From: Rhodothermales bacterium
GTDB lineage: Bacteria > Bacteroidota > Rhodothermia > Rhodothermales > BA12
Direction: 5' to 3'
DNA: 42,177 nt
NCBI GenBank assembly: GCA_014879465.1
Contig: JACSSA010000107.1
Location: 1 to 42,177, forward strand
Below, piece by piece: positions 1 to 38,865 of the stretch (its first letter is position 1; each line of letters starts with the position of its first letter). The position numbers and the translations under genes were made by a program. Below the pieces are notes generated by a model, which saw only the letters and a program-made list of their open reading frames with translations, made no database searches and was not told where the DNA came from.

Positions 1-1946
1 AGGTTGTCGAGCGCCACGCGCATATCGGCGAGGATGGCGTCCTGCCCGCGCCCGTCGGCCTCTTCGATCTCGACCTCGATATCGTTGCTGTGGACGCCCT
101 CGGCGTGTTCGTCGCGCTCGGCGCGTCCGGTGCGCCGCCCCGTCGAGACGACCCCGTCCACCGCCAGCAAGCGGCGCTCGGCGAGCATCCCGATGCGGCT
201 GGACTCGGTGAGCGACGTGCCGGGCGGGAGGACGACGCTGACCGTGAACGAGCCTTCGTTGAACGGCGGGAGGAACTCGCGCCCCAGCGAGGGCACGATT
301 GCCAGCGCTCCGAGCACGAGCACGAGCGCCCCGCCCATCACCGCCTCGGGGTGGGGAAGCGTCCGGCGCAGCATCTTGGCGTCGAAGGTTTTGAGGTGCC
401 GCACCAGCCATCCGTCCTGTCCCTCGCGGGCCGTCACCGCCTTCGAGCCAGGCAGGAGGTAGGCGCAGAGCGCGGGCGTGACGGTTGTTGCCACGAGCAG
501 CGACGCCAGGATGCTCGTGATGTAGGCGATGCCCAGCGGCGTAAAGATCTGCCCTTCGATGCCGCCGAGCGCGAACAGCGGCAAGAACACGAGGATGATC
601 AGGATGGTGGCGAAGACGATGGACGAGCGGACTTCGTTCGACGCCTCGCGCACCACGTCGAGGGCGGGCCGCGGATTGTCCCGCTGCGCGTTTTCCCGGA
701 GCCGGCGGAAGACGTTTTCCACGTCCACGATCGCATCGTCCACCAGCTCGCCGATGGCGACGGCCAGGCCGCCGAGCGTCATCGTGTTGACCGAGATGTC
801 GAACGCCTTGAACACCAGCGCCGAGATGACGATGGAGAGCGGAATGGCGGTCAGCGTGATCGCGGTGGTGCGGACGTTGAGCAGGAACAGAAACAGCACG
901 ATCACCACGAGGATGGCCCCGTCGCGCAGGGCCTCTTCGACGTTCCCGATGGCGGCCTCGATGAACGGCGCTTGGCGGAACACGTCGGGGTGGAGCGTCA
1001 CGCCTGCGGGCAGCGTCTTGGCGAGATCGTCGAGCGCGGCGTCGATCTGCCGGGTCAGCTCCACCGTGTTGGCCCCGGGCTGCTTTTCGACCGAGACGAT
1101 GACGCCGGGGCGTCCGTTCACGCCCGCGTCGCCGCGCTTGGGGGCCGAGCCGTAGGCGACGTCGGCCACGTCGGAAACCCGCACCGAGGTGCCGTCGGCG
1201 GCGCGCACGACGATCTGGCCGATCTCCGACAGGTCGGCGGTGCGCCCGACGATGCGGACGAGGTATTCCTCGCCCCGCCGGTCCAAGAAGCCGCCGGTGC
1301 GGTTTTCGTTGGCCCCGCGCAGCGCGTCTTCGAGGTCGCGCAGCGACAGGCCGTAGGCGGCCATCCGGTCGGCGCGGGGGCGCACTTCGACCTGCTTGAG
1401 GCCGCCGCCGATGGCGATCACGTTCGACACGCCGGGGATCGTCATCAGGCGCGGGCGGACGGTCCACTCCGCGAGGTCGCGGAGCGCCAGCATTGCGGCC
1501 TCCGACGTGTCGCGCGAGGTCAGTCCCACCATCTGAATCTGCCCCATCACCGACGTGACCGGCCCCATCGCGGGCACGATGCCCTCCGGCATCGGCACCG
1601 TTTGGAGGCGCTCGGAGACGAGTTGGCGGGCGCGGTACACGTCCGTCTTCCACCCGAACTCGACGTAGACGACCGACAGGCCGATGCCGCTCACGCTCCG
1701 CACCCGCTCGACGCCGGGTGCGCCGTTCATCGCCTGTTCCAGCGGCAGCGACACGAGCGTCTCCACCTCCTGCGGGGCCAGTCCGTCGGCCTCGGCCATC
1801 AGCGTCACCGTGGGGCGGTTCAGGTCGGGCAGCACATCCACGGGCAGGCGCATCAGCACAAACGTGCCGTAGACGAGCACGGCCGCCGCCGCTGCGACCA
1901 CGAGCAGGCGGTTGTCGAGCGAGAAGCGGATGATGCGGTCGAACAC
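1..1946 (-). CDS. RND efflux permease, CzcA/CusA-like (3' end outside window)
   Basis: Inner-membrane proton-driven pump of a tripartite efflux system. About 648 residues are visible of the roughly 1030-1070 usual for the family; the C-terminal half lies beyond the left edge. A first membrane segment spans residues 14-31, followed by the porter domain opening with LPVDVLPDLNRPTV (residues 34-47). After a second hydrophobic block (343-357), a TM4-like segment at 392-411 reads GGLAVAIGELVDDAIVDVEN, carrying the acidic residues expected in the proton relay. The GTG start is chosen because it lies 25 bp after the fusion-protein stop and directly precedes FDRIIRFSLDNR, the usual family N-terminus. 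No Shine-Dalgarno is visible. It is last in an operon with TolC-like and fusion-protein genes. Heavy-metal substrate is inferred from family resemblance, the His-containing neighbours and the divergent two-component system; a different cation or drug cannot be excluded. Confidence 0.93.
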   Translation of the reverse strand, partial: MFDRIIRFSLDNRLLVVAAAAAVLVYGTFVLMRLPVDVLPDLNRPTVTLMAEADGLAPQEVETLVSLPLEQAMNGAPGVERVRSVSGIGLSVVYVEFGWKTDVYRARQLVSERLQTVPMPEGIVPAMGPVTSVMGQIQMVGLTSRDTSEAAMLALRDLAEWTVRPRLMTIPGVSNVIAIGGGLKQVEVRPRADRMAAYGLSLRDLEDALRGANENRTGGFLDRRGEEYLVRIVGRTADLSEIGQIVVRAADGTSVRVSDVADVAYGSAPKRGDAGVNGRPGVIVSVEKQPGANTVELTRQIDAALDDLAKTLPAGVTLHPDVFRQAPFIEAAIGNVEEALRDGAILVVIVLFLFLLNVRTTAITLTAIPLSIVISALVFKAFDISVNTMTLGGLAVAIGELVDDAIVDVENVFRRLRENAQRDNPRPALDVVREASNEVRSSIVFATILIILVFLPLFALGGIEGQIFTPLGIAYITSILASLLVATTVTPALCAYLLPGSKAVTAREGQDGWLVRHLKTFDAKMLRRTLPHPEAVMGGALVLVLGALAIVPSLGREFLPPFNEGSFTVSVVLPPGTSLTESSRIGMLAERRLLAVDGVVSTGRRTGRAERDEHAEGVHSNDIEVEIEEADGRGQDAILADMRVALDN

Positions 1947-1971: not shown

Positions 1972-3117
1972 TCAGAGGTTGCGCAGCGCCGTGGCGCCCG
2001 CCACGACGACCCGCTCGCCCACGCGAAGGCCCGACACGACGGCGACGCGTCCGCCCGGAGCCGCCGGCCCCAGCGTGACGGAGCGCTCTTCGAAGCCCTC
2101 GGCGGTGGGGTGGACGAAGACGATCGTCTGCCCGTTCTCGCCGCGCACGACGGCGGCTTCCGGGACGGTGACGCTGGGCACGTTGGCGCTCACGGGAATC
2201 TCGACCGTCACCGACTGCCCCGAACGGAGCCGACCGGCGGGGTTGCCCAGCGCGTAGAGCGCGTCGAGCGTGCGCGAGGTGGGGTCGACGACCGGGCCGA
2301 AGCCCTGAAACCGGGCCTCGAACGCGGCGTCGGGGAAGGCGTCGGCGACCACGCGAGCCGGGGCGCTCGCGCCCTGCACCCGCCCGATGTCGGCCTCGGG
2401 CACGCGGGCGCGCACCTGCAGCCACCCGAGGCTGACGAGCCGAAGGATCGGCGTACCGGCCTCGACAAAACTGCCCGGCGCGGCGCCCACTTCCGCCACC
2501 ATCCCCGACACGGGCGCGACGACCGGATAGCGGTTGCCTGCGCCGAGCGCGCCGCCCAGCGCCGCCCGCTGCGCTTCGGCCCCGCGCAGGCGAATCTCCG
2601 CGGCCTCGATTTCCTTGCGGGCCACCACGCGGGCCAGCGCCCGCAGGCGCACCACGTCGGCGCGGGCCTGCGCCACCTCGGATTCGGCGCGGGCCATCTC
2701 GGCCCGGATCGACGCCACTTCGGGGCCTGCCACAGCGCCTTCCACCGTGCCCACCACCTGTCCGGCACGCACCGTCTCGCCCACGCCGGGCAGGCGAGCG
2801 GCCACGAACCGGCCCGGCTGGGCCGACGACACCACGGCCTCCCCGCCCGAGCCAGGGGCCAGCACGCCCGGCACGCGGAGGATTTCGGCCACGGCCTGCG
2901 AGTCGGCGCGTTCGGTGCGGATGCCGAGGGCAAACTGCGCCTCTTGCGGGACCGAGATCAGGCCGTCGGTGCTCGTCGAGGCGGCGGCAGGGGCAGCCTC
3001 GGTACCGTGCGGCTCGTCGCCGTGCGCACGGGCGCGGGGGGTGGCTACCAGCACGCCCAGGCCGACCAGCACGGCCAAGACCGCCCCGATTCCGAAAGAG
3101 AAGGGAAGACGTTTCAT
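1972..3117 (-). CDS. Efflux RND periplasmic adaptor (membrane fusion protein)
   Basis: Periplasmic adaptor linking the RND permease to the outer membrane channel. The 381-residue product has an N-terminal hydrophobic signal or anchor (residues 4-25) ending near ARAHGDEPHG, a short His/acidic motif that may bind metal. Two lipoyl-like halves (about 92-130 and 198-225, the latter VVAPVSGMVAEVGAAPGSFV) flank an Ala/Arg-rich coiled hairpin (132-190). Beta-barrel and membrane-proximal domains follow, with a segment reading FQGFGPVVDPTSRTLDALY, typical of CzcB/CusB-type adaptors. The ATG is preferred over in-frame upstream codons because it begins the signal sequence and overlaps the stop of the preceding gene in an ATGA arrangement, implying translational coupling. 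The next gene, the permease, begins 25 bp downstream. A 25-base stretch around the HGDEPHG codons is shared exactly with the upstream gene. Confidence 0.92.
   Translation of the reverse strand: MKRLPFSFGIGAVLAVLVGLGVLVATPRARAHGDEPHGTEAAPAAASTSTDGLISVPQEAQFALGIRTERADSQAVAEILRVPGVLAPGSGGEAVVSSAQPGRFVAARLPGVGETVRAGQVVGTVEGAVAGPEVASIRAEMARAESEVAQARADVVRLRALARVVARKEIEAAEIRLRGAEAQRAALGGALGAGNRYPVVAPVSGMVAEVGAAPGSFVEAGTPILRLVSLGWLQVRARVPEADIGRVQGASAPARVVADAFPDAAFEARFQGFGPVVDPTSRTLDALYALGNPAGRLRSGQSVTVEIPVSANVPSVTVPEAAVVRGENGQTIVFVHPTAEGFEERSVTLGPAAPGGRVAVVSGLRVGERVVVAGATALRNL
3004..3028 (-). repeat. 25-nt direct repeat, copy in the adaptor gene
   Basis: This stretch encodes the AHGDEPHG segment just after the signal peptide of the adaptor. 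It is identical over 25 bases to 3624-3648 in the neighbouring gene of the same operon. Amino acid conservation alone would not force identical wobble bases, so recent duplication or gene conversion of a signal-plus-His module is a reasonable inference. Confidence 0.75.
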
Positions 3118-3746
3118 GGCGAAGGAGAGGCAGAAGGGAGGGTGCTCCGACGGCGTTGGCGGGCGAGGAAGGCGAGCCATACGGCTCCGACAAGCCCCAG
3201 CGCCGCCACGGCGACGAGCCAGCCCCACGAAAGCGGGTTTTCTGCAGTCTCGGCGGCGGCTTCCGCTTCGGCGGCGGGTGCAGGTGCAGGCACGGAGAGG
3301 AGCATCAGCCCCCGCTGCCCGCCCGCCTCCACGCGGAGCGTAAACGAGAGCGCCCCGACAGGCAGAGCGGGGCCTTCGACGGTGTAGACGCCCGGCTCGC
3401 CGGTGGCGGTCACGCGGAACGTGTCGCGGCGGCCCGGTACGGACAGCGCGAGCGTCGCCCCCGAGATCGGAGCGTTCGTGGCAAAGTCGGCGAGGTAGAG
3501 CGTCGCGTGGAGCGGGTCGGCGGCGGCTCGCACGGGAACGACGAGCACGGCTTCGAACGCTTGCGAGAGCGCCGACGCCACCGAAGCTCCGGTCCGCGCG
3601 GCCGGGGCCGCAGCGGCCTCGGCACCGTGCGGCTCGTCGCCGTGCGCAAGGGCTGCGCAGGGCAGCATCAGCAGCCCCAGCATCGCGCCAAGGAGACGGA
3701 TCGTCCGGGAAAGCGTCATAGGAGCGAAGAAGGCGAGGGAAGGCAT
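3114..3746 (-). CDS. Small exported membrane-anchored protein of the RND operon (function unknown)
   Basis: A 210-residue protein with an N-terminal signal sequence (LLGAMLGLLMLPCAALA, about residues 19-35) followed at once by HGDEPHGAEAA. The centre (about 60-150) looks like an immunoglobulin-like beta domain, with text such as SVPGRRDTFRVTATGEPGVYTV. One membrane segment lies near 175-195, followed by a short Arg-rich tail, so the bulk should sit in the periplasm. Its ATG overlaps the TolC-like stop codon (ATGA), and its own stop overlaps the adaptor start, so it is embedded in the efflux operon by coupling on both sides. An in-frame ATG nine codons downstream (3719) is an alternative start. 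I infer an accessory metal-binding or assembly role from position and His motif. I do not recognise the family. Confidence 0.82.
   Translation of the reverse strand: MPSLAFFAPMTLSRTIRLLGAMLGLLMLPCAALAHGDEPHGAEAAAAPAARTGASVASALSQAFEAVLVVPVRAAADPLHATLYLADFATNAPISGATLALSVPGRRDTFRVTATGEPGVYTVEGPALPVGALSFTLRVEAGGQRGLMLLSVPAPAPAAEAEAAAETAENPLSWGWLVAVAALGLVGAVWLAFLARQRRRSTLPSASPSP
3624..3648 (-). repeat. 25-nt direct repeat, copy in the small periplasmic gene
   Basis: Second copy of the 25-base identity shared with 3004-3028. It encodes the AHGDEPHG segment after the signal peptide of the small Ig-like protein. Confidence 0.75.
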
Positions 3747-5044
3747 CAGAAAGGAAGCAGGCCTGCGGGGAGGACGCCCGCCGCGCGGGCGGCGTCGTAG
3801 GCAGCCCGGCGGGCTTCAACGTCGGCAGCGAGGGCGTCTCGGACGGTGGCGTAGAGGCGGGCGCGGGCGGTGAGCAGATCCGTCAGGCTCATCTCTCCTC
3901 CCGCATAAGCGAGACGAAGCAAGCCGAGGCTCTCCTCTACATCGGGGCGGGCCGCGACGTAGCGAAGGCGGAGGGCGTTGGCGTTTTGCAGCCGGGTGCG
4001 CGCGGCATTTTGCTGGGCGTGGGTGGTGGCGGCGAGCGCGTCAGCCTGCGCCCGGCGCGACGACGCCTCGGCGCGGGCAGCCTGCGCTTCGCGGCTCTGC
4101 GGGCCGTACTGTACCAAGGGGATCGAGACGCCTGCGGTCAGTTCCACGCCCGATCCGCCCAGACGAACGAAGCCGTTCCACAGCGCCGCGTCGGCCACCA
4201 GCCCGTCGCGTTCGTAGGTCGTCCGCGAGATCTCCACGCCTCCGCGAAGGCGCAGCGCCGGGCGCACGAGTTGACGCGTCGAGTATGCGGCATCCGCCTC
4301 GGCGGCGGCGGCGGCGGCACGGGCCGCCTGCACGGGGTAGGCCTCCAATAGGGTATCGGGGGAGGGCAAGATGGCCAACTGCTCGAAGCGCACGAGCGGC
4401 CCGAGCGAATCGACCGGTTGGCCGAGCAGCGTGGCCAGTTCCAGCCGTGCGCTGAGCGCCTCCGCCTCCGCCCGCGCACGTTCCGTCTGCGCCGAGAGCG
4501 CGTCGAGGCGGGCGAGCCGGAGGTCGAGTTCGCTCACGTCGCCCGCGCTGTAGCGAAGCGCCACGGCATCCACGAGCGTGTCGGCGTCGGCGGCGAGCAG
4601 CCGGGCAAGGCGAAGCTGCGCGTCGGCGGCAGACGCGTCGGTGTAGCGAGCCAGCACATCGAAGCCCCGTTCGGCAAGGGCCGCACGCTGCTCCGCCTCC
4701 GTCCACGCCCGCTCGGCGGCGGCGGCGGCGAAACGGGCCTGCCGCACCGACGGTGCTTCGAGGGTGAACGCCACGCCCATTTCGGCCCGGTACTCGTTGC
4801 CTTCCCACAGCAGCGACGGGGGGAGGGCGACGTCGGCTTCCAGTTCGGGAGCCTCGGCCCAGCGGTTGGAACGGGCCGCTTCCTGCGCCCGGGCCGCCTG
4901 CACGGCGGCGAGGGCCGCCCGGGCCTGCGGGCTGGTCGACAGGGCCATCGCCACCGCCGTCTGCTCGCGCAGCGTGTCGGCACGCTGCGCCCATGCGCTG
5001 GGGGCCAGCACAAGCACCGAAACAACGAGAAGGCGACGAAGCAT
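3746..5044 (-). CDS. TolC/CusC-type outer membrane efflux protein
   Basis: Outer membrane channel of the tripartite pump, 432 residues, within the normal range for the family. A Sec signal peptide (MLRRLLVVSVLVLAPSAWA, then Q) is followed by two Ala/Arg/Glu-rich helical repeats (about 30-215 and 230-425) typical of outer membrane efflux proteins. Characteristic internal text includes RYSAGDVSELDLRLARLDAL in the first half and YAGGEMSLTDLLTARARLY in the matching place of the second. First gene of the operon: its stop overlaps the start of the small periplasmic protein. The start is the only ATG preceding the signal peptide. It lies 148 bp from the divergent response regulator, so the promoter and any shared operator must be in that gap. 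Confidence 0.92.
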   Translation of the reverse strand: MLRRLLVVSVLVLAPSAWAQRADTLREQTAVAMALSTSPQARAALAAVQAARAQEAARSNRWAEAPELEADVALPPSLLWEGNEYRAEMGVAFTLEAPSVRQARFAAAAAERAWTEAEQRAALAERGFDVLARYTDASAADAQLRLARLLAADADTLVDAVALRYSAGDVSELDLRLARLDALSAQTERARAEAEALSARLELATLLGQPVDSLGPLVRFEQLAILPSPDTLLEAYPVQAARAAAAAAEADAAYSTRQLVRPALRLRGGVEISRTTYERDGLVADAALWNGFVRLGGSGVELTAGVSIPLVQYGPQSREAQAARAEASSRRAQADALAATTHAQQNAARTRLQNANALRLRYVAARPDVEESLGLLRLAYAGGEMSLTDLLTARARLYATVRDALAADVEARRAAYDAARAAGVLPAGLLPF

Positions 5045-5118
5045 AGGGCGGGAGCGGCGCGGTTGCGTTTGGCTGCACCGAAGATGGACGTCCGGCGCTT
5101 AAACCACTCTGAATCCCA

Positions 5119-5138
5119 ACCTGAAAGTTTTTTCAGGT
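5119..5138. promoter_or_regulatory. Perfect 8-bp inverted repeat between efflux operon and two-component system
   Basis: ACCTGAAA and TTTCAGGT flank a GTTT spacer, giving a perfect dyad in an otherwise GC-rich gap. It is 74 bases from the efflux operon start and 54 from the response regulator start. The position suggests an operator for the adjacent OmpR-type regulator serving both directions, although OmpR-type sites are more often direct repeats. No rho-independent terminator is expected here because both genes are transcribed away from it. Confidence 0.55.
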
Positions 5139-5192
5139 ACCGCACCCGTCCGAAAGCCCGAACTTGTCCGCTTCCCGCACCTCGTTTGCCGC

Positions 5193-5885
5193 ATGCGCAT
5201 CTTGGTCCTCGAAGACGAAGCCCGCCTCTCCCGCTCGCTCCAGACCGGGTTGGAGGAGGAGGGTTACCGCGTGGACGTGGCGCACGACGGGGTGGAGGGG
5301 GAGGCGCTGGCGCGGTCGGGCGTGTACGACGCGCTGATCGTCGACTGGCGGCTGCCGCTGCGCGAAGGCCCGGAGGTGATTGCCCGCTTGCGCGCCGACG
5401 GATTCGCCACGCCGGTTTTGATGCTCACCGCCCGCGTGGGCGTAGAAGACCGGGTGGCCGGACTCGACGCCGGTGCCGACGATTACCTCGGCAAACCCTT
5501 CGCCTTCGACGAAATGCTGGCCCGGCTGCGGGCGCTGCTCCGCCGTGCCGCGCCCCGCTCGCTTCGGCTGCACCTGACGCCGGGCAATCTCGTGCTGGAC
5601 GAGGCGCAGCACCTGGCCACGCTGGCCGCCGAGCCGCTGGGGCTTCGCCCCAAAGAGTTCGCCTTGCTCGTGCTGCTCGCCCGTCACCCCGGCCAGATTG
5701 TGCGCCGGGAGCGGATGGTGGACTTGGTGTGGGGCGATACGCTCGTAAGCCCCAACACCCTCGAAGTGACGGTCTCGGGCGTCCGATCCCGGCTCCTGAA
5801 CGCCGCCCGCGCCCAGCGCATCGACGCCCCCGAAATCGAGACGGTCCGGGGCGTTGGCTACCGCCTTCACGCCACGCCCGCCTGA
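5193..5885 (+). CDS. OmpR/PhoB-family response regulator
   Basis: DNA-binding response regulator of 230 residues. The receiver domain (1-115) has the acidic pair in LEDE (7-9), phospho-acceptor Asp51 in LIVDWRLP, Thr79 in MLTA and Lys101 in GKPF. The C-terminal winged helix (about 130-228) ends with the canonical ETVRGVGYRL. Three bases separate its stop from the histidine kinase start, so the pair is one transcript. It faces the efflux operon across 148 bp containing a palindrome, the usual layout of CusRS/CzcRS-type systems, so I infer that it activates metal efflux. The ATG is chosen because it opens directly into MRILVLEDE; no Shine-Dalgarno precedes it. Confidence 0.95.
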   Translation: MRILVLEDEARLSRSLQTGLEEEGYRVDVAHDGVEGEALARSGVYDALIVDWRLPLREGPEVIARLRADGFATPVLMLTARVGVEDRVAGLDAGADDYLGKPFAFDEMLARLRALLRRAAPRSLRLHLTPGNLVLDEAQHLATLAAEPLGLRPKEFALLVLLARHPGQIVRRERMVDLVWGDTLVSPNTLEVTVSGVRSRLLNAARAQRIDAPEIETVRGVGYRLHATPA

Positions 5886-5888
5886 CCC

Positions 5889-7286
5889 ATGCGCTTCCGG
5901 CTGTCCGTCTCGCTTCGCCTGACGCTTTGGTACGCCCTGACGCTGGCGCTGTTGCTGGGCGGGTTCGCCGCGTTCAGCTACGCGCGGTTTCACGAGGGCC
6001 TGCACCGCGATTTCGACCATCACCTCGCCCACGAAACCCGCGCGCTGCGTCCGTTTGTGGGGGTGGAGTCCGGGGGGCCGGTGATGCAAACGCCCGAGCG
6101 CATCCAAGCGGTGGCCATCCGAACGGGCGGCACCCAAGGCACCTATGTGCGCCTGCTCGACACGCGCGGCGGCGTGCGCTACCAAAGCCCCAACTTCGAC
6201 GGGATGCCTCCGCTGAGCCTTCCCGCGCTCGGCAACGGCACGCGAACCCTGAGCCAGCCGTGGAACGGGATGCCGGCGCGAACGCTCCTAAGCCCGATTA
6301 CGGCAGAGGACGGCTCGGTTCGTGGCTGGCTTGCCGTCACCGCGTTCGAGTGGTCGATGCACCAGGAACTCGACCGGCTGGGCAGCACGCTGGCGCTGGG
6401 CGCGCTGGCGGGGATGGCGCTCGCGCTTCTCGGAGGCTTTTGGCTGAGCCGCCGCGCCCTCCTGCCGGTCGCCCGGATGACCGACGCCGCCAACCAAATC
6501 GGGGCCACCGACGTGCGCGCGCGGCTCCCCGTGGCCAACGGGGTGCAGGACGAACTGACCGACTTGGCCCACGCCTTCAACGGCCTGATCGAACGCCTCG
6601 ACGAGGCGGTGCAGCGGGAGAAGCGGTTCGCCGCCAATGCGGCCCACGAGCTGCTGACGCCCCTTGCCACGCTCCGCGCCGAAGCCGAGGTGACGCTGCG
6701 CCGCGAGCGCTCGTCCGAACACTACCGCCGCGTCTTGGAAGCCACCATCGAGGACAGCAAACGGCTGTCGCAAGTGGTGAACCACCTCTTGGTGCTGGCG
6801 CGAGCCGAACAGCCGCCTGCCGAAGAAGCCACCGACCTGTCGGCGCTGGCCCGTACCGTCGCCGGAGAAGCCGCCGAGCGGGCCGCCCGCAGCCGCATCG
6901 TGCTGGAGGTTGAGGCGTCGGAGCGCGTCGCCGCCCCCATCGGCGAGGCGCTGGCGCGGACGGTGGTCTCCAACCTGCTCGACAACGCCCTCAAGTACAC
7001 CCCCGACGGTGGGCGGGTGCGCCTGCGCGTGGAGGGCACGCCCCACGAGGCCATCCTCGACGTGACCGACACCGGGATCGGGCTTTCGGAAGAAGACCGG
7101 GGCCGGGTGTTCGAACGCTTCTTCCGAGCGCCGTCGGGCCATTCCCACACCGCCGAGGGCAGCGGGCTGGGGCTTGCGGTGGCGCAGGCCATCGCTCGGG
7201 CGCACGGCGGGGAAATCCATGCGAGCAGTCCCGGCTTGGGGCAGGGAAGCACCTTCACGGCGCGGCTGCCGCGTGCCGACGCGTAG
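5889..7286 (+). CDS. Sensor histidine kinase of the efflux-linked two-component system
   Basis: Membrane histidine kinase, 465 residues. TM1 is about residues 10-31. A periplasmic sensing loop (about 32-163) contains FHEGLHRDFDHHLAHE, a His/Asp-rich stretch that could contact metal. TM2 is about 165-186, followed by HAMP (187-240). The dimerisation helix has His253 in AANAAHELLTPL, where the usual SHELRTPL is changed at Ser and Arg. The ATPase domain has NLLDNALKY (N box), DTGIGL (G1), RFFRAP (F box) and GSGLGL (G2). It is the partner of the preceding regulator, with a 3-bp gap. Metal sensing is inferred from context and the His-rich loop, not demonstrated by a known motif. Confidence 0.94.
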   Translation: MRFRLSVSLRLTLWYALTLALLLGGFAAFSYARFHEGLHRDFDHHLAHETRALRPFVGVESGGPVMQTPERIQAVAIRTGGTQGTYVRLLDTRGGVRYQSPNFDGMPPLSLPALGNGTRTLSQPWNGMPARTLLSPITAEDGSVRGWLAVTAFEWSMHQELDRLGSTLALGALAGMALALLGGFWLSRRALLPVARMTDAANQIGATDVRARLPVANGVQDELTDLAHAFNGLIERLDEAVQREKRFAANAAHELLTPLATLRAEAEVTLRRERSSEHYRRVLEATIEDSKRLSQVVNHLLVLARAEQPPAEEATDLSALARTVAGEAAERAARSRIVLEVEASERVAAPIGEALARTVVSNLLDNALKYTPDGGRVRLRVEGTPHEAILDVTDTGIGLSEEDRGRVFERFFRAPSGHSHTAEGSGLGLAVAQAIARAHGGEIHASSPGLGQGSTFTARLPRADA

Positions 7287-16020: not shown

Positions 16021-16093
16021 GGCTGGGTAGCTCAGTTGGTAGAGCATGCGACTGAAAATCGCAGTGTCGGGGGTTCAATTCCCTCCCCAGCCA
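16021..16093 (+). tRNA. tRNA-Phe (anticodon GAA)
   Basis: A 73-base cloverleaf. Acceptor stem GGCTGGG pairs with CCCAGCC, followed by discriminator A. The D arm is GCTC/GAGC. The anticodon stem TGCGA/TCGCA has loop CTGAAAA, with GAA at the anticodon position. The variable region is GTGTC. The T arm is GGGGG/CCCTC (one G-U pair) around TTCAATT. The 3' CCA is not encoded (the genome reads CCT after the discriminator), so it must be added enzymatically. Its antisense strand gives the familiar false protein text GRELNPRHCDFQSHALPTEL, which is not a gene. Confidence 0.98.
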
Positions 16094-16099
16094 CCTCCA

Positions 16100-23794: not shown

Positions 23795-24133
23795 TTACAT
23801 CCCAATCTGGCCGGCCTTGTCCACCATCTGCATCCCGTGCACGAGGCTGGCCCCGCCCCGGATGGCCACGGCCACATGCAGCGCCTCGGTCATCTGCTCC
23901 ATGTCCGCACCCTTCTCCAAGCAGTCGGTTGTGTACGCGTCGATGCAGTACGCGCATTGGACGGTGTGCGCCACGGCGAGCGCGATCAGGCTCTTCTCGC
24001 GGGCCGTGAGCGCGCCGTCGGCGAAGACCTGTCCGTAGTAGCCGAAAAACGCCTTGCCCAGAGCGGGAGAGGCGTCGGAGACGGAGCCGAAGCGGGCGAG
24101 TTGGTCGGGCTGGTAGTACGTCGAGTCGGACAC
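23795..24133 (-). CDS. AhpD/carboxymuconolactone decarboxylase-like protein, arsenosugar-associated type
   Basis: A 112-residue all-helical alkylhydroperoxidase-like protein. The CxxC redox pair is Cys60 and Cys63 in HTVQCAYCIDAY, with His56 nearby and an extra Cys71. The text ALTAREKSLIALAVAH and AIRGGASLVHGMQMVDKA is what I associate with the arsenosugar-biosynthesis-linked subgroup of this family. It is last in the ars operon, 83 bp after arsC. The start is GTG, giving MSDSTYYQPDQLARFG. The usual partners of that subgroup, an ArsM methyltransferase and a radical SAM ArsS, are not visible here, so role is uncertain: thiol peroxidase-like activity linked to arsenic is an inference. Confidence 0.8.
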   Translation of the reverse strand: MSDSTYYQPDQLARFGSVSDASPALGKAFFGYYGQVFADGALTAREKSLIALAVAHTVQCAYCIDAYTTDCLEKGADMEQMTEALHVAVAIRGGASLVHGMQMVDKAGQIGM

Positions 24134-24216
24134 GGCGAGGAAAGGAGGGAAACGTCAGGCCCAACGTAGTACGCGAAGGCGCTTTCGTTCCAGACCGTCC
24201 CGTGCTCGCGTTGCGC

Positions 24217-24621
24217 TCAGACCGCCGAAGCAAACGCCTTGGCCCACCGCCCGATCCGGTCGCGCACCTCGCAGAACTGGGCCATGATCTCCGCCTCCGT
24301 GCCCGTTGCCTGGGCCGGATCGGGAAAGGGCGCATGGACGGTGCGGTGCGTGCCGGGGAGGACAGGGCAGACGTCGCGGGCATGGTCGCATACCGTCACC
24401 ACCACGTCCCACGCACCGTCTGGTAGTTCGCCCAGCGTGTCCGACGTATGTCCGTCGAGAGGCAGGCCCACGTCGGCCATCGCGGCCGCCGCCCGAGGAT
24501 TTACGCCGTGGGCTTCGATTCCGGCGCTGCGAATGCTGGCATCGGGCAGGTAGTGCCGCAGCCACGCCTCGGCCATCTGGCTGCGGCAACTGTTGCCGGT
24601 GCAGAGTACGAGTATGCGCAT
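24217..24621 (-). CDS. arsC: Arsenate reductase, low-molecular-weight phosphatase (thioredoxin-linked) type
   Basis: Reduces arsenate to arsenite in the cytoplasm; 134 residues. The P-loop CTGNSCRS holds Cys7, Cys12 and Arg13. The redox pair Cys78 and Cys85 (VTVCDHARDVCP) is spaced seven apart as in the Bacillus-type enzyme. The general acid is in FPDPA (Asp101). These cysteines distinguish it from an ordinary tyrosine phosphatase. It lies 47 bp after the acetyltransferase gene in the ars operon. The ATG at MRILVLCTGN is chosen; upstream in-frame text overlaps the neighbour and is not family-like. Confidence 0.93.
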   Translation of the reverse strand: MRILVLCTGNSCRSQMAEAWLRHYLPDASIRSAGIEAHGVNPRAAAAMADVGLPLDGHTSDTLGELPDGAWDVVVTVCDHARDVCPVLPGTHRTVHAPFPDPAQATGTEAEIMAQFCEVRDRIGRWAKAFASAV

Positions 24622-24668
24622 CGTCGTCGTGGAGGAGCAGGAAGATGCCTCAAGGTATTCTCCGGTTG

Positions 24669-25079
24669 TTACCGCATCATGGCCACCGCCGAGGCCGGGC
24701 ACGCGCCTCGAAACTCTTCGGAAGCCTGCACCGACGCAGGCACCTCGTCGCGGCTCACCACGGAGAAGCCGAAGCGGGGAAAGTAGCCGTCGGCGGTGGT
24801 GGTGAGCAGCACGACGCGACGGCCTTCGGCGTCGGCTTGGCCGAGCAGGTGGCGGACGAGCGCCGCGCCCACACCCTGCCCGGCGTCGACCACGGCCACG
24901 GAGCGGAGCAGCGCCGCGCCGTCGTACCGTTCAAGCGCGGCAAGGCCGAGGAGAGTACCGTCGTTGGCGACGGCCACGGTGGCATCGTCCACCCGAAACC
25001 CGTCGAGCGGCAGGCGATGATGCGCCAGAAGAGCCGCAATCGCGTCGCGGTCGGCGTTGGTGGCAGGTCGGAGGGTCAT
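24669..25079 (-). CDS. GNAT acetyltransferase, ArsN2-like
   Basis: A 136-residue GNAT-fold acetyltransferase. The acetyl-CoA loop is in VVDAGQGVGAALVRHLL (about 63-79), followed by VVLLTTTADGYFPRFGF, the usual C-terminal strand and helix of this group. Single-domain acetyltransferases of this kind (ArsN2) recur in arsenic operons; the real substrate in most is not established. It sits between DUF6428 (4-bp gap) and arsC (47-bp gap), so it is clearly part of the operon. The ATG directly opens into TLRPATNADRDAI. Confidence 0.82.
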   Translation of the reverse strand: MTLRPATNADRDAIAALLAHHRLPLDGFRVDDATVAVANDGTLLGLAALERYDGAALLRSVAVVDAGQGVGAALVRHLLGQADAEGRRVVLLTTTADGYFPRFGFSVVSRDEVPASVQASEEFRGACPASAVAMMR

Positions 25080-25083
25080 CGGG

Positions 25084-25593
25084 TCAGCAGATGGAGAGGC
25101 CTTCGGTGCGGGGCTTGCACTGCGCGGCGTGGATGCCAAGGTGAAGCGTGAGCGCGTCGTCGGATGCATCGAGGGCCACGAGGTCGAAGCGGCGTGCGGC
25201 CTCGCCGGGGCGGCCCCATTCCACCAGCACCGGCGCGTCGAGCGAGAACCCGAGCGTCCGATGCACCTTGTGCGCGATCCCGGCAAACTTCGCGCCCGTC
25301 ATCGTGCGGGCGTCGGCGTCAACCTCGTCGAGAATCTGGACGACGACCTCGTCCCACGAGTCGACACGACCTCCGCAGTCCACGGCCCGCACCGTCGTGG
25401 CGAGCACCTCGGTGACGTGGTAGCCGTTGCGTACGGCCTCGCCGGTGGCGTCGGAGACGATCCGGACGGGCCTTGCCGCGGCCTGCGCGAGCGCGGCGAG
25501 GAGCGTGGCGGCGGTGGGCGTTTCGGGCGTTTCCGGAAGATCGAGCAGGTCGAGCGAAACGACGGCGGGCGAGGGCGAGCAGCAGGAAGCCAT
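25084..25593 (-). CDS. DUF6428-like protein of the ars operon
   Basis: A 169-residue soluble protein without signal or membrane segment. It starts MASCCSP and then holds a region TPTAATLLAALAQAAARPVRIVSDATG, with later HVTEVLATTVRAVDCGGRVDSW, KFAGIAHKVHRTLGFSLDAPVLVEWG and a conserved end around LHLGIHAAQCKP. I associate this pattern with DUF6428, found beside ArsR and ArsC in Bacteroidota. Several cysteines (positions 4, 5, about 89 and two near the end) could bind arsenite, which is inference. It is second in the operon, 19 bp after arsR. Confidence 0.7.
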   Translation of the reverse strand: MASCCSPSPAVVSLDLLDLPETPETPTAATLLAALAQAAARPVRIVSDATGEAVRNGYHVTEVLATTVRAVDCGGRVDSWDEVVVQILDEVDADARTMTGAKFAGIAHKVHRTLGFSLDAPVLVEWGRPGEAARRFDLVALDASDDALTLHLGIHAAQCKPRTEGLSIC

Positions 25594-25612
25594 AGGTCGA
25601 GTAGAGAGGGTT

Positions 25613-25978
25613 TTAGGAGCAGCAGGCGGATCCGGGCGGGCAAGCGCACGCGCCGGGCGGGCACGCACAGGACGCGCCCTCGGGCGGGGTAATACGTTCG
25701 AAAAGCGCGGCGAAGGCGTCGGCGGCGGCCACGAGGCCCTGTCGGTCGAGGCCGTAGCAGGTGCGCGGGCCGCTGATCTCGCCGGTGATGAGGCCCGCTT
25801 CGCGGAGCACTTTGAGGTGCTGCGACACCGTCGCCTGCGCCAGCGGCAGCGCGTCCACGATCTCGCCGCACACGCACGCTTGGCGCTCGGCGAGCACGTC
25901 GAGGATGGCCAGACGGGCCGGGTTGGCGAGCGCACGCGCCACAGCGGCGACGTCGAGCAAGGCGGTTGAGTGAGACAT
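25613..25978 (-). CDS. arsR: ArsR-family arsenic-responsive repressor with cysteine-rich tail
   Basis: Winged-helix repressor of 121 residues. [28 protein letters not shown] carries the alpha3 metal box with Cys35 and Cys37, as in arsenite sensors of the ELCVC type. The recognition helix is [16 protein letters not shown]. The C-terminal tail (104-121) is unusually rich in cysteine (six: 104, 106, 111, 113, 119, 120) in CACPPG repeats, possibly a further thiol site for arsenite. First gene of the ars operon. The ATG at [10 protein letters not shown] is preferred because upstream in-frame text crosses the proposed operator. Confidence 0.93.
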
Positions 25979-26000
25979 GGAGATTTGGACTGAGATGGTG

Positions 26001-26016
26001 ATCGTAAAAAAACGAT
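26001..26016. promoter_or_regulatory. Candidate ArsR operator overlapping a promoter box
   Basis: ATCGT and ACGAT flank six A residues. On the minus strand the region reads TTATCGTTTTTTTACGAT, so a TATCGTTT box like other promoter boxes here overlaps the dyad, about 39 bases before the arsR ATG. Autoregulation by ArsR is the natural reading. Confidence 0.55.
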
Positions 26017-26102
26017 AATGGGTTCCCGAGAGCGTCAAAATCATCCCTCGCCCGCTTTGGGGAGCCGTAGCGGCGAACGCGGGTTCGCCGAGGCTACACC
26101 CT

Positions 26103-26738
26103 TTGTTGCTTTTGGAAGCCCTCACCCACGCCCCGGCCACGTTCGCGCTGCTGGTGGTCAACACCGTCGTCAGCCTCTACGCCCTGTTTGTCAACCCCGC
26201 CCTCGTCGATTCGTGGGCGCTGCGTCCGTACGCCATCGTGCGGCGCGGCGAGTGGCAGCGGCTGTTCACCGGCAGTTTTGTCCACGGCAGCCTCGGCCAC
26301 CTGTTCTTCAACATGCTGACGCTCTATTTCGTCGGGCCGGCGTTGGAGGGCGTGCTGGGGACGGGGCGGTTTCTGGTGCTCTACTTCGGCTCGGAACTGG
26401 CGTCGAGTCTGTTCACGGTGTGGCGGCGTCGCGGCGACCCTGCGTACGCAGCCGTCGGGGCCTCCGGGGCGATATCGGGGCTGCTTTTTTCGCTGGTGTT
26501 GTATGCGCCGTTTGCCAAGTTCTACATCTTCTTCGCCATCCCCATGCCCGCGTGGCTCTTCGCCATCGTGTATGTGGGCGGATCGATCTACGCGATGAAG
26601 CAGAACGAGGCGGGGCAGGGCGGCGGCGGCATTGCCCACGAGGCGCACCTCGGCGGGGCGCTCGGCGGCATCGTCCTCACGATCCTGCTCGACCCTTCGG
26701 TCGGGCCGCACTTTCTCCGCCAGATCGGGCTGGGGTAG
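26103..26738 (+). CDS. Rhomboid-family intramembrane serine protease
   Basis: A 211-residue inner-membrane protease with about six helices. [23 protein letters not shown] (50-71) matches the L1 loop and second helix. The catalytic Ser121 is in GASGAISG and the catalytic His182 in [11 protein letters not shown], so the dyad is intact. No Asn-type third residue is needed. The only starts available near the family N-terminus are TTG codons; 26103 is used, and 26106 or 26112 are equally possible. It is divergent from arsR by 124 bp but unlikely to belong to arsenic resistance. Confidence 0.88.
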
Positions 26739-36617: not shown

Positions 36618-37592
36618 ATGCGCGAAACCGCCTTTCTCCACCAGAATGCCGACCGCTGGCGTCGCCTCGAAGCCCTCCTTGACGAGCCGAAGGGCGGCGA
36701 CGTGGACGCGCTCGCCGCGGCGTTCGTCGAGACCACCGACGATCTCGCCTACGCCCGAACCTTCTACCCCGGCGGCAAAACCGAGGCGTACCTGAACACG
36801 CTCACCGCCGACGTGCAACGCCGTCTCTACCGGACGCGGCGCGAAGAGCGCGGGCGCATCAAGCAGTTCTTTGCGGTGGACGTGCCGCTCGCCGTCTACG
36901 AAGCCCGCTACCACTTGCTGATCTCGCTGGCGCTGTTCTTGGTGGCCGTCGCCATCGGCGTGGCCTCGCAACTGGGCGATGCGCAGTACGCCCGGTCGTT
37001 TCTCGGCGACGGCTACGTCGATATGACCATCGACAACATCCGCGAGGGCCGCCCCTTCGACGTGTACGCCAGCGAAAAGCCGGTGCCGATGTTTGTGGAG
37101 ATCACCGTCAACAACGTCAAGGTGGCGCTGCGGATGGTGGCCGCCGGGCTGCTCACGCCGGTTGTGGTGGGCATTATGCTGTTCGTCAACGGCATTATGC
37201 TGGGCACCTTCCACACCTTGTTCGCGCAGCACGGACTGCTCGGCGCGTCGTTTTTGGCCGTCTGGCTGCACGGTACGCTCGAACTGTCGATGATCGTGAT
37301 CGCGGGCGGGGCGGGCATCACGCTCGGCAGCGGCTGGCTCTTCCCCGGCACGCTTCCGCGCGGTGTTGCGTTTCGGCGAGCCGCCCGGCGGGCGCTCTAC
37401 CTCGCCGTCGCGGTCGTGCCGATCCTCGTCGTCGCGGGGTTTATCGAGGGGTTCGTCACGCGCCACTACCGGATGCCGCTCTGGATCAACGCGCTGATTT
37501 TGGCGGCGAGCGCGGCCTATGTGGTGGGTTATTTTGTCTGGCTCCCCCGCCGCCGTGTGCGGCAAGGCCTCGCCCTCGAAACCCTTGCCTGA
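36618..37592 (+). CDS. Stage II sporulation protein M (SpoIIM)-like membrane protein
   Basis: A 324-residue membrane protein. A soluble N-terminal region (1-95) has the usual DRWRRLEALLDE and DLAYARTFYPGGKTEAYLNTL text. It is followed by five or so helices, with the conserved GIMLFVNGIMLGTFHTLF and WLHGTLELSMIVIAGGAGI. The name is historical: non-sporulating Bacteroidota carry these beside MoxR clusters. The ATG is one codon after a TTG; the ATG is used. First gene of a plus-strand run; the next gene starts 4 bp after its stop. The RDD-family gene often next to it elsewhere is not present here. Confidence 0.88.
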   Translation: MRETAFLHQNADRWRRLEALLDEPKGGDVDALAAAFVETTDDLAYARTFYPGGKTEAYLNTLTADVQRRLYRTRREERGRIKQFFAVDVPLAVYEARYHLLISLALFLVAVAIGVASQLGDAQYARSFLGDGYVDMTIDNIREGRPFDVYASEKPVPMFVEITVNNVKVALRMVAAGLLTPVVVGIMLFVNGIMLGTFHTLFAQHGLLGASFLAVWLHGTLELSMIVIAGGAGITLGSGWLFPGTLPRGVAFRRAARRALYLAVAVVPILVVAGFIEGFVTRHYRMPLWINALILAASAAYVVGYFVWLPRRRVRQGLALETLA

Positions 37593-37596
37593 TCCG

Positions 37597-38865
37597 ATGC
37601 CAACTGCCGTCAACCTCCGCGTCGCCCGTCGTCCACTCGACACCCTCAGCGTAGTGTTTTCGATGCTGCGCGCGGGCATTCGCCCGTTGCTCGTCGCGGT
37701 GTTCAAGTACGCCGGGTTGCCTGCGCTCATCGGCGGGGCGGGCGTTGGCGCGTTCTACGGAGGGTTCTTCGCCGCCACCGCGCAGGTCGAATCCGGCGAC
37801 TTCTCGTCGTTAGGCTGGGGCGAAGGCGTCGGGGCGGTCGTCGGGTTTCTCGGCCTCTACGCGGCCTACACCGTCTCGATGCTGCTCGCGGCGGCGTGGA
37901 CGCGCTGCCTCGCCGATGGCGAGCCGTCCGATCCCGACGCGCTGTGGGACGAGGCCCGCCCACACCTCGGCCCGATGCTGCGGCTGTGGCTGCTGTTGTT
38001 CGCTCTTGGATTGGGGGCGATGACGATTTTCCTTGCCATCCTTGGGCTTTTTGCCTCGGCCTCGTCGGCTGGGATTGCGCTCTTTTTCTTCTTTCTGGCG
38101 TTTCCGGTGCTGCTCGTGCTCGCCTTCTTGATCTCGCCGGTCGTGATGATGACCGCGCAGGTGATGCTGGCCGAGAACCTCAATGCCCACGACACGCTGC
38201 GACGGGCGTGGGACCTGCTTGCCGGGGCACGCGGGGGCGCGGGCGTGCTCGTGTTCGTCGTGTCGCTGATCGTGTCGATGGTGGGCTACGCGTTGATGAT
38301 TCCGCTCTACGGCCTGTTCATCGTCGCGATGGTGTGGGGCGGGGCCGACGACCTGTTCGCCTCGATGGAGAAGATGGGCTACGCACTGGGTTTTGTGATA
38401 TCGGCCGTCGCCCTGATTCCCCGACTTCTGTATTTCCTCGCCGCAGGGGCGCTCTACTATGCCCGGATCGAGGCGACGGAACACGTCGGATTCACCCGCG
38501 AAGTCGGCTCGCTGATGGCCGCGTTCCCCGATGCGCCGGCGAGCAGCCCGCCGCCGCTGCCTGGATCGGCCTACGCCGAGTCGCCGCCGTTCCCCAACGA
38601 TGCCCCATCGGCTCCAACCGTGGCCCCCACACTTACCGACGAGGCGTTCTTCGCGTGGACGGAGCCGGAACCGTCGCCCGAGCCGCCCTCCGACGAGTCG
38701 CCGTTTGCGCCGCCGTCGGAACCGTCGCCCGAGCCGCCCTCCGACGAATCGCCGTTTGCGCCGCCGTCAGCAGAGCCACCGGCTCCGCCCGTCCATTCGT
38801 CGCCCGACACGTTCGATCGTTGGCGCGGCCCCCGTCCCGAATCGCCCCCCGCCGATGCGTCCTGA
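37597..38865 (+). CDS. Multi-pass membrane protein with Pro/Ser/Glu-rich C-terminal tail (unknown)
   Basis: A 422-residue protein. After a short basic start, about six hydrophobic segments run from residue 30 to about 290 (for example IALFFFFLAFPVLLVLAFLI and GAGVLVFVVSLIVSMVGYAL). LAENLNAHDTLRRAWDLL recalls the cytoplasmic helix of DUF975/glycerophosphodiesterase-type membrane domains, but I do not claim a family. The tail (about 305-422) is disordered-looking and includes an exact 17-residue tandem repeat, EPSPEPPSDESPFAPPS. It is fixed in the cluster between SpoIIM-like (4-bp gap) and DUF4129 genes (11-bp overlap). Confidence 0.8.
   Translation: MPTAVNLRVARRPLDTLSVVFSMLRAGIRPLLVAVFKYAGLPALIGGAGVGAFYGGFFAATAQVESGDFSSLGWGEGVGAVVGFLGLYAAYTVSMLLAAAWTRCLADGEPSDPDALWDEARPHLGPMLRLWLLLFALGLGAMTIFLAILGLFASASSAGIALFFFFLAFPVLLVLAFLISPVVMMTAQVMLAENLNAHDTLRRAWDLLAGARGGAGVLVFVVSLIVSMVGYALMIPLYGLFIVAMVWGGADDLFASMEKMGYALGFVISAVALIPRLLYFLAAGALYYARIEATEHVGFTREVGSLMAAFPDAPASSPPPLPGSAYAESPPFPNDAPSAPTVAPTLTDEAFFAWTEPEPSPEPPSDESPFAPPSEPSPEPPSDESPFAPPSAEPPAPPVHSSPDTFDRWRGPRPESPPADAS
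38668..38769 (+). repeat. Two tandem 51-bp copies in the tail-coding region
   Basis: Copies at 38668-38718 and 38719-38769 differ at two wobble bases only and encode the same 17 residues. In-frame unit length means copy number can vary without breaking the protein. Confidence 0.9.

Follow-up and report, generated by a model that had tools for sequence, protein, structure and literature searches.

The window analyzed here is a stretch of 42,177 nucleotides from a Rhodothermales bacterium (contig JACSSA010000107.1 of assembly GCA_014879465.1, here called C199; the genome amounts to 2.97 Mb, spread over 219 contigs). It begins with a minus-strand operon for an efflux pump of the resistance–nodulation–division (RND) type. 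Between the genes for the TolC-like outer-membrane factor and the periplasmic adaptor of this pump lies a gene for a small protein, designated P0001. We propose, with moderate confidence, that P0001 is a metal-handling subunit of the pump, anchored in the inner membrane and built on the fold of the Helicobacter pylori protein CrdA, and that the pump probably exports copper. The proposal draws on gene order, on the association of the relatives of P0001 with RND genes, on natural fusions to the adaptor, on a predicted fold, and on a motif with a conserved pair of histidines, all of them read from sequences or from models predicted from sequences.

Gene order in the operon

The open reading frames of the window bear out the order given in a preliminary description of this DNA, namely TolC-like factor, small protein, adaptor, and permease, all on the minus strand. 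The gene for the TolC-like factor (positions 3746..5044, 432 amino acids; Pfam OEP PF02321, E 5.6e-20) is followed by that for P0001 (3114..3746), which has 210 amino acids if translated from the ATG at 3746 or 201 if translated from the ATG at 3719. Next comes the adaptor, P0002 (1972..3117, 381 amino acids; TIGR01730 RND_mfp and HlyD_D23), whose score of 159.7 bits against TIGR01730 (cut-off 94.9, E 8.3e-47) places it among the RND adaptors. The permease gene (1..1946, TIGR00914) has a GTG start at 1946 and is cut by the contig end after the N-terminal 648 amino acids. An ATGA overlap had been described at all of the first three junctions, but only the junction between small protein and adaptor (3117-3114) is a true ATGA. 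That between the TolC-like gene and the small protein is TGATG, with one shared base, for the start at 3746, or a gap of 26 nucleotides for the Met at 3719, and 25 nucleotides lie between the adaptor stop codon (1974-1972) and the GTG (1946) of the permease.

P0001 is predicted to have the CrdA fold and a histidine-tipped N-terminus

P0001 matched no Pfam family over the cut-off and none at all in NCBIfam, and a search of PDB sequences with P0001 alone gave flavin monooxygenases at a best E of 0.046. AlphaFold2, run on P0001 with 37 relatives (small and fused proteins alike were modeled as single chains), returned a model with a mean confidence score (pLDDT) of 82.5, the blocks of the sandwich lying mostly above 90. 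The predicted layout is a signal-peptide-like segment, a beta-sandwich at residues 45-143 (3291..3587, minus strand), and one transmembrane helix at residues 166-191 (3147..3224, minus strand), a hydrophobic segment followed by RQRRR. The earlier characterization of the protein as "Ig-like" and "anchored" is thus upheld by the model.

The top match of the model among PDB structures in Foldseek was H. pylori CrdA (9ll2_A, E 4.9e-5), and a second aligner gave a Z of 13.2 and a root-mean-square deviation of 1.9 over 98 residues at 9% identity. The next fold family was FetP (Z 9.6), with P19, FtrA, and CopC lower down among unrelated sandwiches, so that the fold neighbors are mainly copper proteins. 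The beta-sandwich by which we judged the CrdA fold is present in the model. The Met motif of CrdA, MMXEMPGMXXMXEM, is not matched by the family of P0001, in which a conserved His pair precedes the domain instead. Nor was CusF recovered: its Pfam family, CusF_Ec, had no match in P0001 at E up to 1 or in the 38 aligned relatives at E up to 0.01, and CusF was not among the fold matches listed, which does not by itself exclude an OB-like beta-barrel. The YtkA-like family PF13115 matched 5 of the 38 relatives weakly (best E 1.6e-5); P0001 had no match to it, and the fused relatives P0011 and L181 stayed below the cut-off of 25.9 bits.

The His pair belongs to the motif HGDEPHG, which occupies residues 26-32 of P0001 (3624..3644, minus strand) after an A-x-A site of the signal-peptidase kind. 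The adaptor repeats it at residues 32-38 of P0002 (3004..3024, minus strand), after ARA, a repetition that the preliminary description had overlooked. In both proteins H-G-x-E-x-H-G thus stands directly after the signal-peptide-like segment. H26, H31, and G32, together with N82 and G110, are invariant in 38/38 aligned relatives (which were retrieved partly by the His motif), and an A/G/S-x-A/G/S-like signal-peptidase site directly precedes the first His in 36 of them. If cleavage takes place at this site, the mature small protein and the mature adaptor would both start with His.

Relatives lie beside RND genes

A tblastn search of plasmids found the protein in 18 Hymenobacter plasmid records, under the name "hypothetical protein," and it also met the domain within a Magnetospirillum plasmid protein that bears the annotation of an adaptor. 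The Hymenobacter records that we opened have the order TolC, small protein, adaptor, permease, and the first of them carries genes for a cupredoxin, a P-type ATPase, and a four-helix copper protein nearby. Two Hymenobacter plasmids (L010 and L015) have a nuclear-transport-factor-2-like gene between adaptor and permease.

From a scan of genome contigs that yielded 165 confirmed relatives, the best 80 were kept as loci. RND genes stand beside the domain in 78/80, and the other two are cut by contig ends. The adaptor is fused to the domain or encoded directly downstream in 76/80; a TolC gene lies directly upstream in 68/80, and a permease accompanies the domain in 71/80. Among the four loci without an adjoining adaptor, L092 and L118 have RND genes slightly further off, whereas L093 and L109 run into a contig end less than 300 nucleotides downstream. 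In L118, as in four other Acidobacteriota loci described below (L161-L164), the small gene precedes the TolC gene, the order of H. pylori crdA-crdB. Hymenobacter contributed 41/80 loci.

One of the two patterns with which the 80 loci were found contained the His motif, so that His conservation among them is biased and a count obtained without the motif is fairer. For such a count we used a profile of the domain alone, lacking the His motif. It detected the domain in 42/398 Pseudomonadota genomes (38/398 at E 1e-15 or better) and in 23/199 Acidobacteriota genomes (5/199 at E 1e-23 or better); both surveys centered on genomes in which the domain had already been found, and the tallies include those genomes. 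For the 42 positive Pseudomonadota genomes, the loci of 30 matches were read. In the stronger motif-free loci (L132-L164), which were read with profiles built from relatives only, an RND gene is beside the domain or fused to it in 33/33, the partner being an adaptor in 29 and, in four Acidobacteriota loci, a TolC gene. A His pair lies ahead of the domain in 31/33, as H-G-G/D/E-E-x-H in 19, HEGH(D/S) in 9, GPGHDH in 2, and a looser form in 1; counted in part with a loose pattern, one also lies ahead of the adaptor core in 25 of the 29 loci with an adaptor. The weaker Acidobacteriota loci, with an RND gene in 17/18, may represent a broader and less uniform branch of such domains. Adaptors of L165-L181, likewise from Acidobacteriota, carry a more distant version of the domain at the N-terminus, often lipoprotein-like and with HSH or HDHSH stretches, and possibly point to a wider family of domain-bearing adaptors.

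Homologues away from RND genes, which the preliminary description had named as the observation that would speak against it, were met neither among the 80 loci nor among the 33, and the loci of the relatives likewise led us to reject the idea of a small protein restricted to its own lineage. The family extends over Bacteroidota, Pseudomonadota, Acidobacteriota, and one metagenome-assembled genome of Sericytochromatia. The genome searches score 10-20 candidates per genome, so that all figures for prevalence are lower bounds. In the phylum of the window 7/394 genomes, its own included, match at E 1e-5 or better, and 59 other genomes of the order yielded no convincing copy, the best match (E 8.9e-4) having stops inside. 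The system is thus patchy, and the two surveys dispose of the supposition that the operon is common to the order. Matches from the same order at E of about 1e-4, within long unrelated-looking frames, were judged, from the table of matches only, to be chance.

The domain has repeatedly been joined to the adaptor

Relatives of P0001 are either separate proteins or joined to the N-terminus of the adaptor. The first set of loci holds 56 separate and 24 fused domains, and the motif-free set has the fusion in 25/33. In the Magnetospirillum fusion both His motifs and the former signal-like segment of the adaptor are still recognizable, and a second copy of the HGDEPHG-type motif is retained inside most fused relatives. 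We placed the two states on a tree of 56 adaptors, taken from 112 with an 80% identity filter and built by a quick method that leaves branch support less certain. The tree calls for at least 6 changes between separate and fused, 5 of them forced by well-supported branches, as compared with 17 in shuffles; the adaptor of the window sits on a long branch. We regard such repeated switching as strong evidence for action of the domain on the adaptor, with both in one compartment and at a stoichiometry of one to one.

An AlphaFold2 model of one natural fusion (L090; mean pLDDT 83.6) comprises the sandwich, a two-helix hairpin (residues 154-177 and 179-191), and a normal adaptor. The model has low confidence in the linkers and supports no claim of contact between the domains.

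A palindrome faces the divergent two-component system

As previously described, the operon faces a two-component system on the plus strand. It consists of an OmpR/PhoB-type response regulator (5193..5885, 230 amino acids; PF00072 and PF00486 over the cut-off) and a sensor histidine kinase (5889..7286, 465 amino acids; HATPase_c, HisKA, HAMP). By E-value their best NCBIfam models are TIGR01387, a heavy-metal regulator (175 bits, cut-off 279), and TIGR01386, a heavy-metal sensor kinase (265 bits, cut-off 293), although neither protein reaches the cut-off that would make the pair a CusRS-type system by these models.

The gap of 148 nucleotides (5045-5192) between the TolC-like gene and the regulator contains the palindrome ACCTGAAA-GTTT-TTTCAGGT (5119..5138), which the preliminary description had called perfect and which indeed has perfect 8-nucleotide arms around a 4-nucleotide spacer. 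We consider it a candidate operator, through which the divergent system probably switches the operon on. It occurs once in the 2.97-Mb genome (pattern CCTGAAA N0-12 TTTCAGG). When the gap was dinucleotide-shuffled 5000 times, a perfect inverted repeat with 8-bp arms and a spacer of 0-12 nucleotides turned up in 206 cases, about 4%; the palindrome is therefore above chance, but modestly, and by itself is suggestive only. The cusR/cusC gap of Escherichia coli contains the palindrome AAAATGACAATTTTGTCATTTT, which E. coli CusR binds. Gaps were compared for 7 of the ten loci with a nearby regulator. The Rheinheimera locus L075 (ATGACAATATTGTCAT) and L111 (GATTACAAGTTTGTAATC) have perfect palindromes of the same type as E. 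coli, L091 has an AT-rich palindrome, and that of L084 has one mismatch.

A serious alternative, though in our estimation the less probable one, is that the palindrome of the window is not an operator, being due to chance or serving another function while the regulator binds elsewhere. The frequency of such repeats in shuffled gaps favors this possibility, as do the absence of a palindrome from the gaps of L112, L113, and L101 (3/7 relatives) and the difference in type between the window (CTGAAA-TTTCAG) and E. coli (TGACAA-TTGTCA). What inclines us to the operator is the recurrence of palindromes in the same gap in E. coli and in L075, L111, L084, and L091, together with the single occurrence of the window copy.

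The permease has a set of histidines in place of the Met triad

The remaining part of the permease lies on contig C76 (locus L126), joined to the start of the window by an overlap of 69 identical nucleotides. Against TIGR00914 (CusA/CzcA) the N-terminal half scores 488 bits and the C-terminal half, from C76, 343; neither half alone passes the whole-protein cut-off of 701, and from both together we judged the permease to belong to the heavy-metal efflux (HME) RND proteins. In an alignment that includes E. coli CusA as well as 61 long permeases from the loci of the relatives, the window permease has S, S, and H at the positions of the CusA Met triad (M573, M623, and M672). Met occurs at neither 573 nor 623 in any of the 61 permeases, and all 61 have His at CusA positions 617, 668, and 672, with which both halves from the window genome agree; the first His of a segment HAEGVH (90..107, minus strand) is the one at 617. 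Since 40 of the 61 are from Hymenobacter, there are fewer independent cases than this number suggests. The fourth transmembrane helix (TM4) reads A(I/L)G(E/A)LVDDA in 61/61. The three His are absent from L119, a Czc-like metal permease of DFG type from the same genome, and also from the Cus-type permease beside the Magnetospirillum system, which has the three Met. In the latter arrangement, on a plasmid of Magnetospirillum XM-1 (L011), the Cus-type permease and its Met triad stand next to a His-type permease with a fused adaptor.

After the permease, C76 encodes a copper-type P-type ATPase (L126:1984-4263; TIGR01511, 571 bits against a cut-off of 397). The enzyme has a CPH motif, and its long N-terminus is rich in His (HAGHDxHAxH-rich). 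The interval between the two genes (L126:1325-1819) encodes a short lipoprotein-like protein that has a Cys in a lipobox-like setting, DDHAHG near the N-terminus, and HATHAH at the end, and that belongs to no Pfam or NCBIfam family.

We tentatively raise the possibility, which we think somewhat doubtful, that these pumps form an undescribed class of HME-RND systems with a His relay rather than a Met relay. Two mature N-terminal His tips (His1...His6) would feed the three-His site of the permease (617, 668, 672), and each His1 tip would perhaps coordinate copper through its free amino group, as in N-terminal-His copper sites. On this hypothesis the several fusions and splits of the domain would reflect a need for it to be placed one-to-one on the adaptor.

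Copper is the most likely substrate; in its favor are the P-type ATPase, the likeness to CrdA in fold, and the neighbors of the Hymenobacter genes. That the pump instead exports zinc, cobalt, or nickel, with the small protein as a His-based chaperone for these metals, we consider unlikely. The missing Met triad and the three invariant His of the permease would fit such a substrate, as would the score of the C-terminal half, which is 221 bits with the zinc pump ZneA and 203 with CusA. The N-terminal half, however, scores 297 bits with CusA as against 278 with ZneA, the copper-type ATPase follows the permease, and the predicted fold is that of CrdA. In addition, TM4 of the window permease is AIGELVDDAIVDVEN, not the DFG type that marks divalent-metal exporters according to PMC3637150.

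Other features of the window

At some distance from the operon, a probable arsenic cluster occupies 23795-26164 of the minus strand. It is composed of an ArsR-like frame (25613-26164) and an acetyltransferase-like frame (24669-25286), both recognized by eye, an arsenate-reductase-like ArsC (24217-24702; TIGR02691, 136 bits, below the cut-off of 174), and an arsenosugar biosynthesis-associated peroxidase (23795-24133; TIGR04169, over the cut-off). The sole tRNA or Rfam match of the window is a tRNA-Phe(GAA) at 16021-16095. Two tandem copies of 51 nucleotides, 98% alike, are found at 38666-38768 within an open frame (37519-38865).

Discussion

The small protein would, in our view, be a dedicated metal-handling subunit of the adjoining RND export pump. 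After export, its C-terminal helix would hold it in the inner membrane, with the CrdA-fold sandwich and the His-tipped N-terminus (HGDEPHG) displayed in the periplasm beside the adaptor, whose own mature N-terminus would bear the same tip. The tips would catch periplasmic metal, most likely copper, and the metal would be handed to the permease, the entry region of which has invariant His in place of the Met triad, and then be released outside by the TolC partner. This role would equal that of CusF in the Cus system, of the C-terminal CusF-like domain of SilB, and of CrdA in H. pylori.

Several observations weigh against this proposal. The sandwich has no column of conserved His, Met, or Cys in the 38 relatives, in contrast to CrdA with its Met motif, and metal binding by the small protein is an inference from fold, motif, and fusion only. 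Similarity to CrdA in sequence is insignificant: a profile of the 38 relatives, compared with PDB sequences, met 9ll2_A at E 0.41 in one short stretch. Two of the 33 motif-free loci lack a His pair before the domain, and 4/29 lack one before the adaptor. The permease is cut in the window, and its continuation on C76 depends on the 69-nucleotide overlap. Finally, the His site would also suit zinc, cobalt, or nickel, and a P-type ATPase is present in just 5/80 loci (for which mostly 6 kb of DNA on each side was fetched), so that copper is weakly supported in general.

The first of these points would be expected if the domain were a structural or assembly partner that tethers or positions the adaptor, or stabilizes its contact with the permease, and if the His tip were secondary. 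The adaptor of the window has no Cys lipobox, as checked by eye, and the hairpin predicted for the L090 fusion would anchor the adaptor in the fused proteins. Conservation within the family, however, is highest at the His tip, the tip is doubled in most fusions, and the fold neighbors are mainly copper proteins; we accordingly give a structural role slightly less credence still than the export of a metal other than copper. That the small protein is a periplasmic signaling partner of the divergent sensor kinase, which lies next to the operon in the window, is very improbable, given that a response regulator or kinase occurs on just 10/80 fetched loci, that 24/80 have the adaptor fusion, and that no fusion of the domain to a kinase was seen.

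Returning to the metal-handling subunit, its slot, role, and fold are all precedented, and so we do not claim a new kind of system. What is new, as judged from searches of one open-license library, is that there is such a family, that it has been joined more than once to the adaptor N-terminus, that both proteins carry a His tip, and that they go together with permeases in which the His set replaces the Met triad. A pump subunit for which Pfam and NCBIfam have no model is annotated as a "hypothetical protein" or is hidden in long "adaptor" entries, and the natural fusions indicate at once which partner and which compartment are likely. Its co-occurrence with permeases that lack the Met triad and have invariant His raises the question of whether a His-based relay can export periplasmic copper.

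How, then, does the operon compare with known systems? In E. coli, cusS-cusR faces cusC-cusF-cusB-cusA, and the layout in the window is equal except that CusF is replaced. The two share the slot between the TolC-like and adaptor genes, the divergent two-component system, and the palindrome in the gap. The preliminary description had correctly put an unrecognized protein in this extra position, which is the CusF slot and is filled by a protein without a Pfam or NCBIfam family. CusF, however, is a small OB-like beta-barrel (PMC4446572), whereas P0001 is predicted to be a CrdA-fold sandwich with a transmembrane helix. The likeness to the YtkA-like family PF13115 is, as reported above, weak and confined to some relatives.

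For SilB of Cupriavidus metallidurans, PMC4446572 describes a chaperone domain that is known as a separate protein and also as part of an HME-RND adaptor, a precedent for the two states of the family studied here. The SilB domain, however, is CusF-like and C-terminal, whereas that of our family is CrdA-like and N-terminal, with a predicted transmembrane hairpin between the domains. The available portions of the papers on CopBAC of Synechocystis (PMC4335983) and on an RND system of Caulobacter (PMC3637150) describe no such domain, and one open-license library yielded no paper on the family motif, on YtkA with RND efflux, or on a CusF-like domain with SilB, and on the combination of adaptor and domain nothing of relevance apart from a general review.

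The preliminary description had allowed known relatives only three structural genes or a CusF chaperone, and this was too narrow. H. pylori CrdA (HP1326, of crdAB-czcBA) binds copper and makes up the fourth protein of an RND operon for copper resistance (PMC12319023, PMC9182242). It has no His and a Met-rich motif (PMC9182242), and the operon is induced by copper through CrdRS (PMC12319023). CrdA and P0001 are alike as extra small proteins of four-gene RND metal operons, in the two-component system associated with each operon, and in their export and their fold, both of these predicted in the case of P0001. They differ in that the family of P0001 has a His tip, a transmembrane anchor, and no conserved Met, and in that CrdRS (HP1364/HP1365) is encoded away from the H. 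pylori operon (a reference title in PMC9182242), whereas the two-component system of the window adjoins its operon. With these differences, crdAB-czcBA of H. pylori is the nearest functional precedent for the operon of the window.

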